Source: Candidatus Eiseniibacteriota bacterium
GTDB lineage: Bacteria > Arandabacterota > Arandabacteria > JAGLYR01
DNA: 7,029 nt
Assembly: GCA_023132135.1 (NCBI GenBank)
Contig: JAGLYR010000251.1
Span: forward strand, 1 to 7,029
Direction of reading: 5' to 3'
Shown: positions 82-7,029 of the stretch, piece after piece
How positions within the stretch are numbered: position 1 is the stretch's first letter
Layout of the letters: every line of letters begins with the position of its first letter
Notes under the pieces: generated by a model
The model's input: the letters and a program-made list of their open reading frames with translations, nothing else
What the model was told of the DNA's origin: nothing
The model's database searches: none
Program-made: the position numbers and the translations under genes

Positions 82-290
82 GGGTTCCCACCCTCATGAC
101 CCGGCTGCATTCCCGCAATCGTCGGAGCCAAGAGACTGATATCCGAACCGGCTTCCGGCCACTGCTGAGAAATGCGTGTTAAGCCCCCCGCGTGTCTCCG
201 CCGATAGGGAAACAGGGTTCTCGCAAGCCCATTTCGACCCTCAGATTGGATCCCGATGTTCGTCCGCGTCGGACGCTTTCATCGGAAGGT

Positions 291-294
291 GGAG
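291..294 (+). promoter_or_regulatory. Ribosome binding site of the lipoprotein gene
   Basis: GGAG, inside the purine-rich run GGAAGGTGGAG at 284-294, lies 10 nt before ATG 305. This site, together with the signal peptide that begins there, decides the start at 305 rather than the upstream in-frame TTG at 176. Confidence 0.6.
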
Positions 295-304
295 ATCGTA
301 CGCC

Positions 305-2371
305 ATGAAGAACGTCGCGCGATGGCTGCTTTGCGTGCTGCTTGTCTGTTCCGCTGGTAGTTGCAGCGTCAATACCAATCCCGAGATGCCAACGTGGGAA
401 GCCGAGTTCAACGTTCCCCTCGGAACGGAAACCACTTCGCTGTCGGAATGGGTCGAAGAGTCGGAGGATCTCTACGAGAACGCGTCGGGAGTGATCACGT
501 TCCAGTTCGACGGAACACTGGACCGGGCGGAGATCGGGGACCGCCTTACCATAGATCCCATCACCGAATCGTTTCACCAGACCATCGGCGTCTTTGAGCT
601 GGACTGCCCCGAGCGGCAGCAGACTGAACTGGTGTTCTCGAGCTTGTGGCCGCCGTCCCAGGTTCTGGTAGGGCAGACCGTTCCAGTACCGGGTTTCGAG
701 TTCGACAACGCCGAGGCGCCGGTGCCCGAGCTGGACGGGTTCCATTCAATGACTCTCGACGAGGGGCGGATCACGGTCGTACTCAGGAATCTTCTCCCGG
801 TCGCCATCGAGAACGTCAGCTTGAATCTGGTGGATGAGATCTCCTCGTCGGTTATCGTCTCCTTCAGCTTTTCGAGCGTGCCGGCGGGGCAGGCCGACTC
901 GACTTTCGCCGATCTCGCCGGCAGGACGCTCACTAATGATCTCAAGGTGCGGGCAAGCGGCGGATCTCCCGGATCGGGGTTGGACCCTGTGTACATCGAT
1001 GCCGGGGCGGGCGTCGCCTTCGAGGTGGGCCTGTCGAATCTCAAGGCCCTCGAGGCCTCCGCCCGACTCCCTGCCACCGGGATTCGGCTGGATGAAACGG
1101 CCGAGATGTCCGGGGGAATGGTTCTGACCGGGGCCCATATTGCCCGGGGACAGCTGCAACTCCAGTTCGCCAACGAACTGCCGGTTGCCGTGGGCGGCAC
1201 CTTCGAGATAGCCGAGTTCCGCAATCCCTCTGGAGCTCCCCTTGTGATCGAGGTACACATACCGGCGGACGAAGAGAGTTCAACCGAGGTCGTGCTGGAT
1301 GACTACACCTTCAGCGCGCCCGCCCCCGCTCCCGGCGCTCCCCAGATCCTGAACATCGCCGCGGAAGTAACCACCGAAGACACGGGGGACATCGTCACAC
1401 TGAGCGCCGAGGACGGCCTCCATGTCGAGGTCATTTTCGATACCCTTTCCTTCTACCAGGTTTCGGGGATTCTGGACGGCACCTCCTTCGACATCACGCC
1501 CACCACCCAAGAGGTGGATGTTCTCGATGACCTGGAGGACATCTCTCTGCAGGAGGCGCGGCTGGTCCTGAAGCTGGTTTCGAGTCTCTCGATTCCAGTG
1601 GGCCTCTCCCTCGAGATCGCGGGGCAATCCGACAAAGGCACTATTGTGACCCTGCCCATCGAAGTCGAACTGGGGCCGGCTCCCAAGTCTTCGTCCGATA
1701 CGACCTGTGTGATCCTCGATCAGGACAACAGCACCATCGTAGAGTTCCTCAACAACATCCCCTCGTCCATCACGGTAACCGGGGAGGGGCGCGCCGGAGA
1801 CGGCGTCACCGCTGGGACCGTTTCACAGGAAGACTACGTTGAGGGGACCTACGCTTTCGACGTTCCCTTCCACCTCGCCTTCGAGGAACAATCCATCGAA
1901 ACAGACCTGACCGAAATCGAGATCCTTCCCGACAGCGGGGACATGGATGGCGGAGACAATGCCATTGACGGCGAGTTGACGGAGCGGATGCGATCCGCCG
2001 AGATCTGGGTCACGTTCCAGAACCATACCCCGCTGGGTGCTGCCGTGACCGCCTACTTCGCCGCGGACTCGACACGGGTCTTCTCCGACCCGGACCTGGT
2101 TCTCGATCCCGTCGGGCTGGAGCCCGGAAGTGTGGACGGATCGGGGCGGGTAGTCACGGCCACTGTCTGCTCCAACCACCTGGTCCTGACTGAAGAGGAT
2201 CTGGACCTCTTCCGGAACCCCGGCAGCGAGATCAAGATCGTGTACTTCGGAACCGGGATCCGCCTCCACTCCACCGGGGGACAGGCGGTGAGAATCTGCG
2301 CCTCCGACTACTTCCGGACCCAGGCGCGGATCCGTTTCACCGCAATGGTGGAAATGCCTGACGACAAGTGA
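305..2371 (+). CDS. Large predicted outer-membrane lipoprotein with repeated beta-rich modules, unknown function
   Basis: A 688-residue protein I cannot assign to a named family. Residues 1-20 form a lipoprotein signal: Lys2/Arg6, a hydrophobic core at 7-18, and lipobox Ala17-Gly-Ser-Cys20. Ser at +2 of the mature protein (no Asp) fits outer-membrane sorting under the usual proteobacterial rule. The rest is acidic, beta-rich and without transmembrane helices. A module of the form hydrophobic-x-N-x-x-P-hydrophobic followed by alternating hydrophobics recurs near residues 160-177 (RNLLPVAIENVSLNL), 288-304 (ANELPVAVGGTFEIA), 424-440, 481-495 and 571-588, suggesting several Ig-like or LEA14-like beta sandwiches. 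A Pro/Ala linker lies near 338-346. Cys101, Cys468, Cys622 and Cys665 might form disulfides. The barrel gene follows after 11 nt, so the two are probably one operon and may act together at the outer membrane. It is sure as a gene; function is open. Confidence 0.85.
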   Translation: MKNVARWLLCVLLVCSAGSCSVNTNPEMPTWEAEFNVPLGTETTSLSEWVEESEDLYENASGVITFQFDGTLDRAEIGDRLTIDPITESFHQTIGVFELDCPERQQTELVFSSLWPPSQVLVGQTVPVPGFEFDNAEAPVPELDGFHSMTLDEGRITVVLRNLLPVAIENVSLNLVDEISSSVIVSFSFSSVPAGQADSTFADLAGRTLTNDLKVRASGGSPGSGLDPVYIDAGAGVAFEVGLSNLKALEASARLPATGIRLDETAEMSGGMVLTGAHIARGQLQLQFANELPVAVGGTFEIAEFRNPSGAPLVIEVHIPADEESSTEVVLDDYTFSAPAPAPGAPQILNIAAEVTTEDTGDIVTLSAEDGLHVEVIFDTLSFYQVSGILDGTSFDITPTTQEVDVLDDLEDISLQEARLVLKLVSSLSIPVGLSLEIAGQSDKGTIVTLPIEVELGPAPKSSSDTTCVILDQDNSTIVEFLNNIPSSITVTGEGRAGDGVTAGTVSQEDYVEGTYAFDVPFHLAFEEQSIETDLTEIEILPDSGDMDGGDNAIDGELTERMRSAEIWVTFQNHTPLGAAVTAYFAADSTRVFSDPDLVLDPVGLEPGSVDGSGRVVTATVCSNHLVLTEEDLDLFRNPGSEIKIVYFGTGIRLHSTGGQAVRICASDYFRTQARIRFTAMVEMPDDK

Positions 2372-2376
2372 GGAGA
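2371..2376 (+). promoter_or_regulatory. Ribosome binding site of the barrel gene, overlapping the lipoprotein stop
   Basis: AGGAGA begins on the last base of the lipoprotein TGA (2369-2371) and sits 6 nt before ATG 2383. It decides that start over the in-frame GTG at 2368, which would place the SD inside the gene. A second ATG at 2389 is 12 nt away and less likely. The arrangement suggests translational coupling. Confidence 0.6.
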
Positions 2377-2382
2377 AACACC

Positions 2383-3723
2383 ATGAGCATGCTGAGAGTC
2401 GAGAGCAACCTCGCCCGGAAGCGGGGCGCCGTCGCGGCCCTGGCTGTGAACCTCCTGGTGTTCCTGCTCCCGGTGCAGGCTGCCGGGACTCCCGTGACCG
2501 CCCGGGACCTGGCCCTGGGAGGCGCAGGCACAGTTTCGGCGAGGGGGGTCGAGACCCTTTGGTCGAACCCTGCAAACCTCGGGGCCCGTAACGGTCCGGC
2601 CTTCTCCCTCATGTTCCTCAGCATGGCAGCGGGCGCGTCCAACAACAGTTTCACCCTCGACCGGTACAACCGTTTCACGGAACCCGGTACCGAGCTGTCG
2701 TTCTCCGACAAGAACGAGATCCTCGAGAGCATTCCGGAGAACCAGTTCCAGCTGCGGGCCGAAGCCGCGGCCAATGCCCTCGCGCTCACCGCGGGTCCCA
2801 TTGGTTTCGCGGTCACGCCCCGGGTATCCGGATTCCTGACCCTGGCGAAGGATTACTTCGACCTCCTGTTGACGGGTAACGAGTTGAACCGAACGTATTC
2901 CTTTGATGGCACAACCGGGGAGAGCATCGCGTTTGTTGAAACGGCCCTCTCCTTCGGACGCCGGACATCCTGGGTCCCCTTCCGGAACGGGCGCTGGGGA
3001 ATCTCGCTCAAGCTCCTCTCGGGCCGCGCGTACTTCGAGGTCATGGAGGCGGAAGGTCAATTGACGACCTACCCCGCCAAGGCAGCGGGCCAGGCCCGGG
3101 TCAAGGTGCACTATTCCGGCACGACTGAAGAGATCGGGAAAGACGGCGAGAGTGAATCGGAGTACAAGACCAGCTCCGGGCACGGCTTCGGCTTCGACTT
3201 TGGACTGGCCGGGCGAATCTCATCCAACTGGAAAACCAGTATCGTCGTCCGGGACATAGGGAGCAGCATCACCTGGGATCGGGGGACGGAGAAATCGTAC
3301 CTCTACCAGGTCGACTCGCTGACCGTAGAGAATGCCGACGAGGACGACGCTATCACCGAGGAGGAAACCGACCATCCTCTGGATTCCTTCACGGTTTCCA
3401 TCCCCGCCACCATGCATCTGGAGCTCACACGGGAAACCAGCGGGTTCCTCTTCAGCACTGCCTACGACCAGGGCTTCGGCAATTTCGCCGGGGTCTCCAC
3501 AACACCGAGACTCTCTTTCGCAACGGAGTTCCGCTGCCCCGCGTGGTTACCGCTTCGCACGGGTGTCTCCTTCGGCGGTGGAACGGGCACCTGCCTGTCC
3601 GGAGGTCTGGGTTTCCAGATGGGAGCGCTTCGACTCGACGTTGCAGGGCGCACTCACAGTATTTTCCCTGGCGGCGCGAGCAAGGGCGCCGCGGGGGCGT
3701 TCACGAGCTACCTGCGATTCTGA
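2383..3723 (+). CDS. Outer-membrane beta-barrel protein, FadL/PorV-like
   Basis: A 446-residue protein. Residues 1-33 look like a Sec signal peptide: basic Arg5, Arg12, Lys13 and Arg14, hydrophobic core at about 16-30, cleavage after Val-Gln-Ala33 or Ala34. The mature N-terminus carries ARDLALGGAGTV (40-51) and then LWSNPANLG (59-67). The pattern ALGGAG...NPA is typical of FadL/OmpP1 and PorV/PorQ-type barrels, where this part forms the hatch or first strand. The rest alternates polar and hydrophobic residues as beta-strands do, with acidic loops, for example an Asp/Glu-rich stretch coded near 3334-3372. The chain ends in Tyr-Leu-Arg-Phe; a C-terminal Phe is the usual Bam recognition signal. 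FadL proteins import hydrophobic compounds, while PorV-type proteins serve type IX secretion; the sequence does not tell which, if either. It follows the lipoprotein gene closely and is probably cotranscribed. No terminator is visible after it. Confidence 0.8.
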   Translation: MSMLRVESNLARKRGAVAALAVNLLVFLLPVQAAGTPVTARDLALGGAGTVSARGVETLWSNPANLGARNGPAFSLMFLSMAAGASNNSFTLDRYNRFTEPGTELSFSDKNEILESIPENQFQLRAEAAANALALTAGPIGFAVTPRVSGFLTLAKDYFDLLLTGNELNRTYSFDGTTGESIAFVETALSFGRRTSWVPFRNGRWGISLKLLSGRAYFEVMEAEGQLTTYPAKAAGQARVKVHYSGTTEEIGKDGESESEYKTSSGHGFGFDFGLAGRISSNWKTSIVVRDIGSSITWDRGTEKSYLYQVDSLTVENADEDDAITEEETDHPLDSFTVSIPATMHLELTRETSGFLFSTAYDQGFGNFAGVSTTPRLSFATEFRCPAWLPLRTGVSFGGGTGTCLSGGLGFQMGALRLDVAGRTHSIFPGGASKGAAGAFTSYLRF

Positions 3724-3731
3724 TTGGTTTT

Positions 3732-4295
3732 CTACTGCGGCGGGCTTTCGATCACAGGAAGACGGATGCTGAACAGGACGCCTTTCTCCTGACCCGATTT
3801 GTAGACAATCCCCCCACCGTGGTTTGCGGCTACCACCATGCACTCGGCGAGCCCCATGCCTTCGGCGCCCTCCTTCGTCGTGAAACCGGGATCAAAAATG
3901 CTGGAAGCCGCGTCCTCGGGGATTCCGGGACCATCGTCCGCATAGACAATCACGATGGCGGAGTCGTCGGGATTCCACACCGCATCGATGTCGATCCGTC
4001 CGTCCCCGTTGCCCGCTTCGGCAAAGGCTTCGGTGGAATTATCATAGAGATTGACAAGCATTTGCTGAATCTGGGCGGGGTCCGCGTGGGTCTTGGGTAG
4101 ATCAGGCGCAACCCGCGCGTTCAATTTGATCTGGGGCGAGAGAGGTTGCAGGAACGCGGCGGCTTCTCTGAGCAGCTGCCCGATGTCGGACAGAACCGGC
4201 GACCACGCCTCCGCCGACGGATTGGCCGTTCCCTTCACAATGTCCTGGAGCTTCCTGACCTGCTTGACTACCTTCTTGGCATTCCTAACGCCCAT
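3732..4295 (-). CDS. Small stand-alone histidine-kinase-type ATPase domain protein, no phosphoacceptor His
   Basis: A 187-residue protein that is almost only a HATPase_c (GHKL) domain. Visible boxes in order: N box at 78-91 (QMLVNLYDNSTEAF, Mg-binding Asn86 expected), G1 box ADDGPGIP at 119-126, F box IFDPGFTTK at 133-141, and G2 box GAEGMGLA at 143-150, then ANHGGG. The nucleotide site therefore looks intact. Residues 1-50 resemble the end of the dimerisation helix and the linker of NtrB-like kinases, but there is no H-E/H-D phosphoacceptor motif. The only histidines are His70 and His159, both within the ATPase domain. There is no sensor domain or membrane segment, so it should be cytosolic. 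The start at 4295 is chosen because GGAGGAG lies 8-10 nt upstream and the longer frame (to 4541) is the shadow of purM. It follows purM by 44 nt on the same strand. It could be a truncated kinase, a partner kinase acting on another protein's histidine, or an anti-sigma-like protein. Confidence 0.8.
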   Translation of the reverse strand: MGVRNAKKVVKQVRKLQDIVKGTANPSAEAWSPVLSDIGQLLREAAAFLQPLSPQIKLNARVAPDLPKTHADPAQIQQMLVNLYDNSTEAFAEAGNGDGRIDIDAVWNPDDSAIVIVYADDGPGIPEDAASSIFDPGFTTKEGAEGMGLAECMVVAANHGGGIVYKSGQEKGVLFSIRLPVIESPPQ

Positions 4296-4303
4296 GTTGC
4301 TTT

Positions 4304-4310
4304 CTCCTCC
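4304..4310 (-). promoter_or_regulatory. Ribosome binding site of the ATPase-domain gene
   Basis: On the minus strand GGAGGAG precedes ATG 4295 by 8 nt. It fixes the start, since the frame upstream only overlaps purM out of frame and has no other good site. Confidence 0.6.
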
Positions 4311-4330
4311 GCTCCGCGTTGTTCGATTCT

Positions 4331-4339: not shown

Positions 4340-5506
4340 CTATCGGTTGATCCTCCGCGCATCTTGAATCCTCTGATCCGGATTTCTCACCGGGCGGAAT
4401 GTCTTCCCCTTTCCAACCAGACCACGCGACGGAAGGCGAACCTCCCGCCCGCCGTCCGCCACAACACGGCCAATGCGCCACGCATCCCATCCCCCAAGGC
4501 CCAGTGCATCCACACAGGCAGCGCTGTCCTCCTCGGGACAAACGACGCAGAACCCGATTCCCATGTTAAAGGTTGCGTACATCTCCCCTTCCTCGACACC
4601 CCCCAGATTCTGAATCACCTGGAAGACCGGAAGCGGTTCGGGAAGGCAGTCGAGGACGAAGCTCGCTGAGCTCTTGACGCGCGCAAGATTCAGGAGACCG
4701 TCGCCCGTGACATGGATCAGGGCCTTGAGACGGACACCCGCGCCGCGCAAGGCATTCACGTGCGGAACGTAGATCACAGTGGGTTCAAGAAGCGCTTCGC
4801 CCACCGGGCACCCGAGTTCGTCCACGTGGCGGTCGAGGCTCCAGCCGGCTTGCTCGATGACTCTCCTTGCCAGCGTGAATCCGTTGGAATGGAGACCGCT
4901 GGCGGCGATCCCGATAACCACATCACCATCGGCCAGATGGTCCCCGCTGATGATCCGATCCAACTCGACGGTGCCGACGGCGGTTCCCACCAGGTCGAAG
5001 GCCCGGCCCTCGACGCTCCCGTGCAGCATCTCGCGAACCTGGGCCAGCTCCCCGCCGGGGATCACGATCCGCGCCTGCCGGGCGCCGCGGTACAGGCTCT
5101 CGCCGATCCTGGAGAGCATCCCGGCATCGGCCTCCTCGACGGCCAGGTAGTCCACCATGGCCAGGGGCTCGGCGCCGACGCACAGGATGTCGTTCACGTT
5201 CATCGCGATGCAGTCGATCCCGACCCCGTCGTACCGGTCCATCTGCTGGGCCACGAGGATCTTGGTGCCGACGCCGTCGGTCGAAATCGCCAGCCCCAGC
5301 GTATCGGTCAGACGGATCACGTTGGCGAAGTAGCCAATATCCATAACGGGGGCGCCCGCGCCCTCCCTGAGGGATTCCGATTTCTTCACCCATTTGATGA
5401 GACCTGCCAGAGAATCCTCCGCCTTCACGGCGTCAACTCCTGCTGCCGCGTAGGTCGTTGCACGCACTCGATCCTGTTTCCCGCTGGCCGATTTCCGCTG
5501 TCCCAC
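4340..5506 (-). CDS. purM: Phosphoribosylformylglycinamidine cyclo-ligase (AIR synthetase)
   Basis: PurM catalyses the ATP-dependent closure of FGAM to aminoimidazole ribonucleotide in cytosolic de novo purine synthesis. With the GTG start at 5506 it has 388 residues. Family landmarks: N-terminal TTYAAAGVDAVKAED (about 17-31), STDGVGTK (75-82) for nucleotide/phosphate binding, GIDCIAMNVNDI (96-107), GAEPLAMVDYLA (111-122), HSNG (206-209), IHVTGDGL (264-271) and EMYATFNMGIG (308-318). The loop that reads GGETAEMPGMY in E. coli is GGELAQVREML here, a divergent form. It is about 40 residues longer than the E. coli enzyme (345), mostly at the two ends; the last 30 or so residues are basic. Start choice: GTG 5506 has GGAGG 5 nt upstream; ATG 5533 (397 aa) has only a weak AGG; GTG 5467 (375 aa) has AGGA and best fits the usual family N-terminus. 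No other pur genes lie in the window. It is divergent from the H-NOX operon. Confidence 0.93.
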   Translation of the reverse strand: MGQRKSASGKQDRVRATTYAAAGVDAVKAEDSLAGLIKWVKKSESLREGAGAPVMDIGYFANVIRLTDTLGLAISTDGVGTKILVAQQMDRYDGVGIDCIAMNVNDILCVGAEPLAMVDYLAVEEADAGMLSRIGESLYRGARQARIVIPGGELAQVREMLHGSVEGRAFDLVGTAVGTVELDRIISGDHLADGDVVIGIAASGLHSNGFTLARRVIEQAGWSLDRHVDELGCPVGEALLEPTVIYVPHVNALRGAGVRLKALIHVTGDGLLNLARVKSSASFVLDCLPEPLPVFQVIQNLGGVEEGEMYATFNMGIGFCVVCPEEDSAACVDALGLGGWDAWRIGRVVADGGREVRLPSRGLVGKGKTFRPVRNPDQRIQDARRINR

Positions 5507-5511
5507 GAGTC

Positions 5512-5516
5512 CCTCC
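5512..5516 (-). promoter_or_regulatory. Ribosome binding site favouring the purM GTG start at 5506
   Basis: GGAGG on the minus strand, 5 nt before GTG 5506. It is stronger than anything before ATG 5533. With the predicted transcript start near 5542 it also leaves a leader of ordinary length. Confidence 0.45.
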
Positions 5517-5548
5517 ACGCCTGGATGGTCCATAACCTGCCTGCCTGC

Positions 5549-5709: not shown

Positions 5710-5868
5710 ATGCCGAAAACAAGAGATGGTTGCACAGTTGCATATTCGACGCCACGGATGAGGATGATCGAGCTCAAGGAAGAGGTCAACCGCCTGAGGG
5801 TACAGACGGGTATGGAACCCAAGTACCAGGTGGACGTCACAGAGGACGTCCAGGGAGGGACTCCATGA
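5710..5868 (+). CDS. Small 52-aa protein coupled to H-NOX, kinase-linker-like helix
   Basis: A short ORF whose TGA (5866-5868) overlaps the H-NOX ATG (5865) as ATGA, a layout typical of translational coupling. Residues 18-31 (RMIELKEEVNRLRV here abbreviated from the helix) form an amphipathic charged helix, followed by GMEPKYQV. This resembles, from memory, the short tail 'ELK-EVN-L---LG-PP-Y' found after PAS or other sensor domains in two-component proteins. The start is uncertain. ATG 5710 has a G-rich run 2 nt upstream, which is close. ATG 5758 or 5764 would give about 36 or 34 residues that still contain the helix. The frame is open further upstream, but that part looks non-coding. It could be a real small partner of the NO-sensing pair, a remnant of a larger sensor, or a leader ORF that serves H-NOX translation. 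Confidence 0.5.
   Translation: MPKTRDGCTVAYSTPRMRMIELKEEVNRLRVQTGMEPKYQVDVTEDVQGGTP
5831..5852 (+). promoter_or_regulatory. Perfect 8-bp inverted repeat abutting the H-NOX ribosome binding site
   Basis: TGGACGTC (5831-5838), six-base loop ACAGAG (5839-5844), GACGTCCA (5845-5852). It ends directly before the GGGAGGG of the SD at 5853-5859. As RNA it forms a G/C-rich hairpin that could modulate ribosome access; as DNA it could be a dimeric operator. It lies inside the 52-aa ORF, so ribosomes translating that ORF would melt it. The function is inferred from position only. Confidence 0.45.
5853..5859 (+). promoter_or_regulatory. Strong ribosome binding site of H-NOX
   Basis: GGGAGGG contains GGAGG 6 nt before ATG 5865 and fixes the H-NOX start. 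The much longer in-frame extension upstream is not part of the fold. Confidence 0.7.
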
Positions 5869-6407
5869 AGGGCGTGGTCAACAAGGGCATCGAGCAACTC
5901 GTTATAGGGAAGTTCGGCCCCGAAGCGTGGCAGGAAGTCAAGAGACGCGCCGGTTGCGAGGAGCCCTTCTTCGCCACCAGCGAGGACTATCCGGACGAGA
6001 TCACCCTGGCGCTGGTCAAAGCGGTCTCGGAGGTCTCCGGGCTTTCGGAGGAAACGGTCCAGATCGAGTTCGGCAAGTTCTGGGTCTCGAATACCGGCAA
6101 GGACTCCTACCCGACTTTCTACAGTCTTGCCGGCTCGTCCGCCCGCGAGTTCCTGCTCAACATGGATCGGGTGCATGAGCAGGCTACGAGGAATATTCCA
6201 GGGGCACAACCGCCGAGGTTCGAATACGAGGAACTCCCGGACGGGAAACTTCTCATGCACTATCACTCCAAACGCGGCCTCTGTACTGTGTTCAGGGGTC
6301 TGATCATGGGCGTGGGCTGCCTGTTCGGCCAGGAACTCCAGGTCCGGTCGATCGCCTGCGTTCACAAAGGCGATCCGCACTGCACCATCGAGGTAACCTT
6401 CCCGTGA
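5865..6407 (+). CDS. hnoX: H-NOX heme protein, nitric oxide sensor
   Basis: A 180-residue single-domain H-NOX (HNOB) protein of normal length; this family binds heme b and senses NO or O2 in the cytosol. Landmarks: MKGVVNKGIEQLV at the start, FG at 17-18 and W22, acidic Tyr-Pro-Asp at 42-44, IEFGKFWV (67-74), FLLNMDRVH (96-104) with proximal heme ligand His104, Pro112 and Pro116-Pro117 before the heme, and the heme-propionate motif Y133-x-S135-x-R137. By alignment from memory with the Thermoanaerobacter protein, its distal O2-binding Tyr140 corresponds to Val142 here, Trp9 to Ile9 and Asn74 to Trp73. The pocket is therefore non-polar and NO-selective binding is predicted. Cys140, Cys165 and Cys173 match three ligands of a zinc site described in some H-NOX proteins. 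The gene starts inside the stop of the small ORF and ends inside the GTG of the HNOBA protein, which is its likely signalling partner. Confidence 0.95.
   Translation: MKGVVNKGIEQLVIGKFGPEAWQEVKRRAGCEEPFFATSEDYPDEITLALVKAVSEVSGLSEETVQIEFGKFWVSNTGKDSYPTFYSLAGSSAREFLLNMDRVHEQATRNIPGAQPPRFEYEELPDGKLLMHYHSKRGLCTVFRGLIMGVGCLFGQELQVRSIACVHKGDPHCTIEVTFP
6390..6394 (+). promoter_or_regulatory. Ribosome binding site deciding the GTG start of the HNOBA protein
   Basis: GAGGT lies 9 nt before GTG 6404, inside the H-NOX coding region. The in-frame ATG at 6422 has no comparable site. GTG 6404 also gives a GTGA overlap with the H-NOX stop. Confidence 0.5.
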
Positions 6408-7029
6408 GCCGAAGTTCAAGCATGGCCGAGGTTGATCTCGGTTCGCTCGAAGCCATGGCCCCGTTTCTCGTCGCGGTGGACGGCAAGGGTATGGTGACCT
6501 GGGCAAGCCGGGCGATCCTGAGGAGGGTCGGGCATGCGGTGGGGCTGAGGTTCGAAGAGCTGCTCGAGCCGAGGGATGCCGGAGGCGAGGATCCTGCAAA
6601 TCTGCCGACTGGAAACACCGGCGGTCTTCGCAGATTCATGCTTCGGGACGGAGAGGCCGCCGTTCCCCTGGCCGGGTTCCCGGCGCGTTCCGGGGACGGT
6701 TTTTTGCTGCTTGCGGCCCCGGACCTGGGACGCCGGGATGATCTCTCGCACTTCGGCTTCGAGGACTTCTCCCCGAACGACACCCAGATTGACCTTCTGA
6801 CAACTCGCGACGAGACTGCGGCATCCATGAAGGACGCCGCCGCGGTGACCGAGGTTCTCCGGGAAAGAAACCGGCAACTGGAGGAGTCCCAGGAAGAACT
6901 CTCCGGCCAGCACCGCGCGATGCTCAACATAATGCGTGACACGGAGAAATCTAAATCCCAACTCCAGGAGCTGAATCTCGAGCTCGAGGAGCAGACGGCC
7001 AGGGCAAACCAGATGGCCCTTCAGGCCGA
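6404..7029 (+). CDS. HNOBA-domain signalling protein, probable hybrid histidine kinase (3' end outside window)
   Basis: The first 208 residues of a longer protein; the frame is open to the end of the window. Residues 20-136 match the HNOBA (heme-NO-binding-associated, PAS-like) domain known from soluble guanylate cyclases and H-NOX-linked bacterial kinases: PFLVAVDGKGMVTWAS (20-35), GLRFEELLEPR (47-57), FLLLAAPDL (100-108) and HFGFEDFSPNDTQIDLL (116-132). From about 137 to the end is a charged coiled coil / signalling helix. Its last part, NLELEEQTARANQMALQA (191-208), is very like the segment that directly precedes the HisKA phosphoacceptor helix in many hybrid kinases, so a HisKA-HATPase module is expected next; a GGDEF or cyclase domain is possible. 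No transmembrane segment is seen, so it is cytosolic. It overlaps H-NOX by 4 nt (GTGA), which fits stoichiometric coexpression and direct control by H-NOX. Confidence 0.82.
   Translation, partial: MSRSSSMAEVDLGSLEAMAPFLVAVDGKGMVTWASRAILRRVGHAVGLRFEELLEPRDAGGEDPANLPTGNTGGLRRFMLRDGEAAVPLAGFPARSGDGFLLLAAPDLGRRDDLSHFGFEDFSPNDTQIDLLTTRDETAASMKDAAAVTEVLRERNRQLEESQEELSGQHRAMLNIMRDTEKSKSQLQELNLELEEQTARANQMALQA

Follow-up and report, generated by a model that had tools for sequence, protein, structure and literature searches.

An H-NOX gene of an uncultured bacterium overlaps a gene for a probable hybrid histidine kinase that begins with a divergent HNOBA

Gene content of the locus

The window, that is the whole stretch of 7,029 nucleotides that was analysed, is the entire contig C170 of a 3.4-Mb draft genome made up of 345 contigs and 96.4% complete. 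Examination of its 3' end revealed the following features:

5710..5868, forward strand: frame of 52 amino acids overlapping the H-NOX start by ATGA; a frame only, its status as a gene being unsupported
5865..6407, forward strand: stand-alone H-NOX (heme NO-binding) protein of 180 amino acids, from the ATG at 5865 to the stop at 6407, with a PF07700 match
6404..6407, forward strand: GTGA overlap of the H-NOX stop with the kinase start (translational coupling), seen in the sequence, with the same junction in three relatives
6404..7029, forward strand: 5' part (208 amino acids) of a probable hybrid histidine kinase, with a GTG start and 208 codons open to the contig end
6425..6784, forward strand: divergent HNOBA (H-NOXA, PAS-like) domain, kinase residues ~8-127, from the fold model, hhalign and the PF07701 matches of relatives
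6782..7027, forward strand: long signalling helix/coiled coil leading into HisKA, kinase residues 127-208, from a predicted helix (127-207) and the alignment with the paralog C129

The four-nucleotide overlap of the H-NOX gene with the next gene, pointed out by a sequence-only reading of this DNA, is the GTGA at 6404-6407; at the same junction L065 and L066 have ATGA and L067 has TAATG, the H-NOX gene overlapping the HNOBA gene in each of these loci. The same reading had counted the 52-amino acid frame as the first gene of a three-gene operon. This was not borne out: a family search with the frame gave a best E-value not below 0.17, no second copy was found in its own genome, and no counterpart was found upstream of the H-NOX gene in L065 or L066. 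A search of the upstream DNA for sites resembling a promoter or a terminator gave none.

Two other groups of genes are carried by the window. At 176-3723 (forward strand), two genes overlap by 4 nucleotides and encode a 731-amino acid frame containing a lipoprotein-like signal and a 451-amino acid protein with weak similarity to the PorV family. At 3732-4319 (reverse strand), directly downstream of purM (4340-5533, reverse strand), a protein of 195 amino acids matches HATPase_c (E 5e-18) with no HisKA match, and reads as a kinase ATPase module lacking a phosphoacceptor.

The H-NOX protein

The identification of the first protein as an H-NOX was confirmed by a PF07700 (HNOB) match at E 1.1e-46 (159 bits against a cut-off of 25.5) that spans model positions 1-162 of 163. 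A residue table of 14 H-NOX proteins showed that all heme-site residues are kept, namely the proximal histidine H104, P116 and the YxSxR motif (Y133, S135 and R137), and that the position equated with the distal tyrosine of O2-binding H-NOX proteins is occupied by V142, which is not a tyrosine. A profile made from the window H-NOX and two relatives found Nostoc Alr2278 as the closest solved relative (E 1.2e-34) and matched the sGC beta-1 subunit at E 1.4e-23.

Three cysteines of the window H-NOX, C140, C165 and C173, coincide with the zinc-site cysteines in Shewanella H-NOX and do not vary among the four H-NOX proteins of the window family in the residue table. The ligand set of zinc-binding H-NOX proteins consists of three cysteines and a histidine or glutamine, and Vibrio cholerae H-NOX without heme reacts to oxidation at such a zinc/cysteine site (PMC7108781). 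Position 162, where the fourth ligand usually lies, is a serine in the window protein and a glutamate in its relatives. Judging from these residues, redox input through the cysteines is possible.

The HNOBA domain of the kinase

The N-terminal domain of the kinase is a real but divergent HNOBA, as established by its predicted fold and by its relatives. The domain had been placed at residues 20-136 by the sequence-only reading; fold and relatives uphold this assignment, whereas the Pfam model does not find it in the window protein, where PF07701 gives E 0.45 and 10.4 bits, over residues 98-169 only, against a cut-off of 23.4 bits. Two relatives have HNOBA as their top-scoring family, both likewise below this cut-off: L065 matches PF07701 at E 2.6e-4 in two stretches (21.0 bits) and L066 at E 0.0096 over model positions 3-78 (15.9 bits). 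When a four-sequence profile of the window family was aligned by hhalign with the N-terminus of a Pfam-certified HNOBA kinase (PF07701 E 1.5e-17) from the distant genome G197, a match of 114 columns was obtained at E 2e-4. Two negative controls, the H-NOX-adjacent survey kinases L042 and L045, gave E 0.42 and 0.57 against the same family profile.

A PF07701 scan of the phylum found nothing and so missed the window family. Searches of PDB sequences with the kinase fragment and with a 3-row profile returned neither sGC nor 2P04, since the window kinase is too divergent. Weak PF07701 matches elsewhere fall mostly on model positions 165-216, the coiled-coil end, and were not counted as HNOBA; matches of the window kinase to IpaC_SipC and GvpL/GvpF concern the coiled coil only and were dismissed.

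An AlphaFold2 model of the kinase fragment had a mean pLDDT of 78.6, with values of ~90 in the core strands and helix and ~41 in a loop near residues 60-73. The nine best Foldseek matches of this model are sGC chains. VIA-align places only H-NOXA and sGC chains in the first twelve ranks, with 2P08 at Z 13.0 (rmsd 2.2 A, 100 residues aligned), 2P04 at Z 12.7 and the sGC chains at Z 11.2-12.8; the best other PAS domain reaches Z 9.5. A control PAS domain from the G143 kinase, modelled in the same way, had neither sGC nor H-NOXA among the 50 matches listed.

Probable continuation of the kinase on another contig

The remainder of the kinase was sought in the same genome. A HisKA scan gave 24 matches, and only one of them, at C171:1-150, enters the model part-way (position 16) at the very edge of a contig. 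It sits in a 637-codon frame, and C171 1-1914 encodes the rest of HisKA, a HATPase, two REC domains and an Hpt domain. Both parts find their best match in the paralog C129: the last 78 residues of the window kinase align with the pre-HisKA helix at C129 residues 298-374 (E 2.5e-8), and the C171 kinase aligns with C129 395-926, 63% of the residues being identical; the two aligned parts are 20 residues apart. In the DNA of C129, the two aligned halves are separated by 58 nucleotides ending in the H-box.

DNA overlap of C170 with C171 or with other contigs was sought and not found; as the two contigs do not overlap, we infer their junction from the above alignments, which suggest that the window kinase continues on C171 1-1914 after a gap of ~58 nucleotides. 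The consecutive numbers of the two contigs are only suggestive of adjacency, and a comparison of the ends of neighbouring contigs, several of them masked, gave no proof that contig numbers follow genome order. A kinase output had been proposed from the coiled coil alone, and it agrees with the histidine-kinase modules in which C171 and two relatives end; the frame does not appear to stop soon after 7029, the best-fitting continuation and the relatives reading on into a histidine kinase.

The kinase frame of C171 is followed by a separate response regulator (2026-2655). This protein, at 2026-2655 of locus L061, has a Cys-rich C-terminal tail (ICMHCHKI...CPEC) without a Pfam match.

Relatives and distribution

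Our survey covered 386 mostly distant genomes, 25 of which have an H-NOX match. The profile of the window-type HNOBA matches only the window genome, G005 of the same class and G143 of another phylum, in each case directly after the H-NOX gene. In G005, the HNOBA protein goes on with two PAS domains and then a kinase core, in which HATPase matches at E 8.8e-27 and HisKA at only E 0.064; the next frame after the kinase gene reads as a receiver-domain protein. In G143, the HNOBA precedes three PAS domains, HisKA, HATPase, two REC and Hpt; in L065/L035, the HNOBA and the HisKA-HATPase-REC-REC-Hpt tail lie within one frame. A scan of genome contigs yielded L066, from a fourth draft genome, as the sole new relative; it shows the same start of the gene pair, and its contig breaks off 259 bases beyond the H-NOX match.

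The other H-NOX loci examined are organised differently. In L037 and L039 the H-NOX is fused to chemotaxis domains; in L042 and L045 its neighbour is a histidine kinase that lacks HNOBA, and in others the neighbouring genes are unrelated. At L051 (4700-7124, reverse strand, G265 contig C202), four tandem H-NOX-like genes encode proteins of ~180 amino acids each in which the proximal histidine is apparently missing; going by their residues, these proteins may differ from the usual mode of heme binding. Finally, L078 3702-5846 (G197 contig C39) encodes a canonical HNOBA-HisKA-HATPase-REC-REC protein in a genome where the survey found no PF07700 match, and is possibly an HNOBA kinase without an H-NOX in its genome. 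A tblastn search of plasmids with the G197 HNOBA region gave no matches.

Comparison with known systems

Bacterial HNOBA genes were reportedly described as neighbours of HNOB genes by Iyer, Anantharaman and Aravind in 2003. According to a paper of 2004, the HNOB and HNOBA domains are common to animal NO receptors and several bacterial signalling proteins (PMC549065), and the HNOBA domain of a Nostoc kinase has been crystallised (2P04; PMC2904703). The pairing of H-NOX with an HNOBA kinase is a known kind of system in view of these earlier bacterial reports and of the crystallised Nostoc domain, and its novelty had been overstated in the sequence-only reading. What is new here is a divergent HNOBA branch below the Pfam cut-off, in uncultured lineages, in which the HNOBA probably leads straight into the hybrid kinase core of the BarA type.

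The Nostoc punctiforme H-NOXA histidine kinase (PDB 2P04, 2P08) likewise carries its HNOBA/H-NOXA at the start of the kinase and provides the best structural matches (Z 12.7-13.0), but it is only 13% identical to the window kinase in the aligned region, and the window protein is under the Pfam HNOBA cut-off. The G197 kinase also has an HNOBA directly before a signalling helix and a hybrid kinase core, and C171 is 47% identical to its kinase part; unlike the window system, it has a canonical HNOBA, no PF07700 protein in the survey of its genome and no C-terminal Hpt match. Systems of the HnoX/HnoK type (Shewanella oneidensis, Vibrio cholerae and HahK of V. fischeri) share with the window a stand-alone H-NOX beside a histidine kinase and three zinc-site cysteines; the survey kinases L042 and L045, which lie next to H-NOX genes, bear no likeness to the window HNOBA. 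The C-terminal modules of BarA-type hybrid kinases are shared by C171 and by its own-genome paralog C129, while the window kinase differs from that type by its HNOBA as N-terminal input domain. Animal soluble guanylate cyclase has the same order of H-NOX, HNOBA and signalling helix, matched here by sequence for the H-NOX and by fold for the HNOBA. The window system differs in that the H-NOX is encoded as a protein of its own and a histidine kinase takes the place of the cyclase as output.

Proposed mechanism and alternative readings

The two coupled genes probably encode a two-component NO-sensing system split over two proteins. NO would bind the ferrous heme of the H-NOX and break the bond between H104 and the iron. 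The H-NOX, as a separate protein, would dock on the kinase dimer at its HNOBA and helix, an arrangement in trans that corresponds to the one in cis of the H-NOX in sGC beta, and once NO-bound would move its proximal helix against the HNOBA and the signalling helix, as described for sGC, in which contacts between H-NOX, PAS and coiled coil have been reported (PMC8196705). Autophosphorylation of the BarA-type hybrid kinase would then be altered, and the phosphate relayed through REC and Hpt to the downstream response regulator. The guanylate-cyclase-like contact between H-NOX and HNOBA is proposed from domain identity and fold only. As for the sign of the response, NO-bound H-NOX inhibits the kinase in Shewanella and Vibrio (PMC8738867), and by analogy inhibition would be somewhat the likelier outcome for the window kinase.

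Three other readings were weighed against this scheme. HNOBA itself is PAS-like in fold, and the N-terminal domain could be an ordinary PAS of a hybrid kinase, its likeness to HNOBA reflecting the shared fold and the H-NOX regulating it as it does other partner kinases; the sub-threshold PF07701 scores of the window protein and its relatives and a Pfam PAS match at residues 15-43 (E 0.1) point in that direction. We consider this unlikely, as sGC and H-NOXA chains fill the first twelve places (Z 11.2-13.0, the best other PAS reaching 9.5), the control PAS had no such chain among the 50 matches listed, and two relatives match HNOBA better than any other family. It is similarly improbable that the H-NOX acts on the kinase chiefly through redox sensing at a zinc/cysteine site, NO binding playing a lesser part: the invariant cysteines and the oxidation response of heme-free Vibrio cholerae H-NOX (PMC7108781) fit such a role, but the heme residues are all kept and the fourth zinc ligand is replaced by serine, or by glutamate in the relatives.

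A third reading, to which we give slightly less credit still, is that C171 is not the continuation and that the window kinase has another, unseen output domain. The two contigs share no overlapping DNA, and contigs may be missing from an assembly that is 96.4% complete. Against this, C171 holds the sole own-genome HisKA match that starts at a contig edge inside the model, both halves best match C129 with a 20-residue gap, and L065 carries the same HisKA-HATPase-REC-REC-Hpt tail after its HNOBA.

Significance

According to a review of 2022, no H-NOX had been solved at high resolution together with its signalling partner (PMC8738867), and it is not yet clear how, in sGC, the NO signal travels from the H-NOX across the PAS and coiled-coil domains (PMC8196705). 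An HNOBA kinase paired with a stand-alone H-NOX presents the module order of sGC in the form of two proteins that can be separated, with phosphorylation as a simple readout. Our findings also indicate that HNOBA domains are undercounted by the Pfam model. We tentatively propose, with a confidence a little short of even, that the HNOBA kinases of this divergent branch, which Pfam misses and which occur in uncultured phyla, keep the allosteric path of sGC (H-NOX, HNOBA dimer and signalling helix) in the form of two soluble proteins that work in trans. If true, these kinases and their H-NOX partners would amount to the animal NO receptor split by nature into two parts, and would offer a tractable route to the structure of an H-NOX/partner complex.
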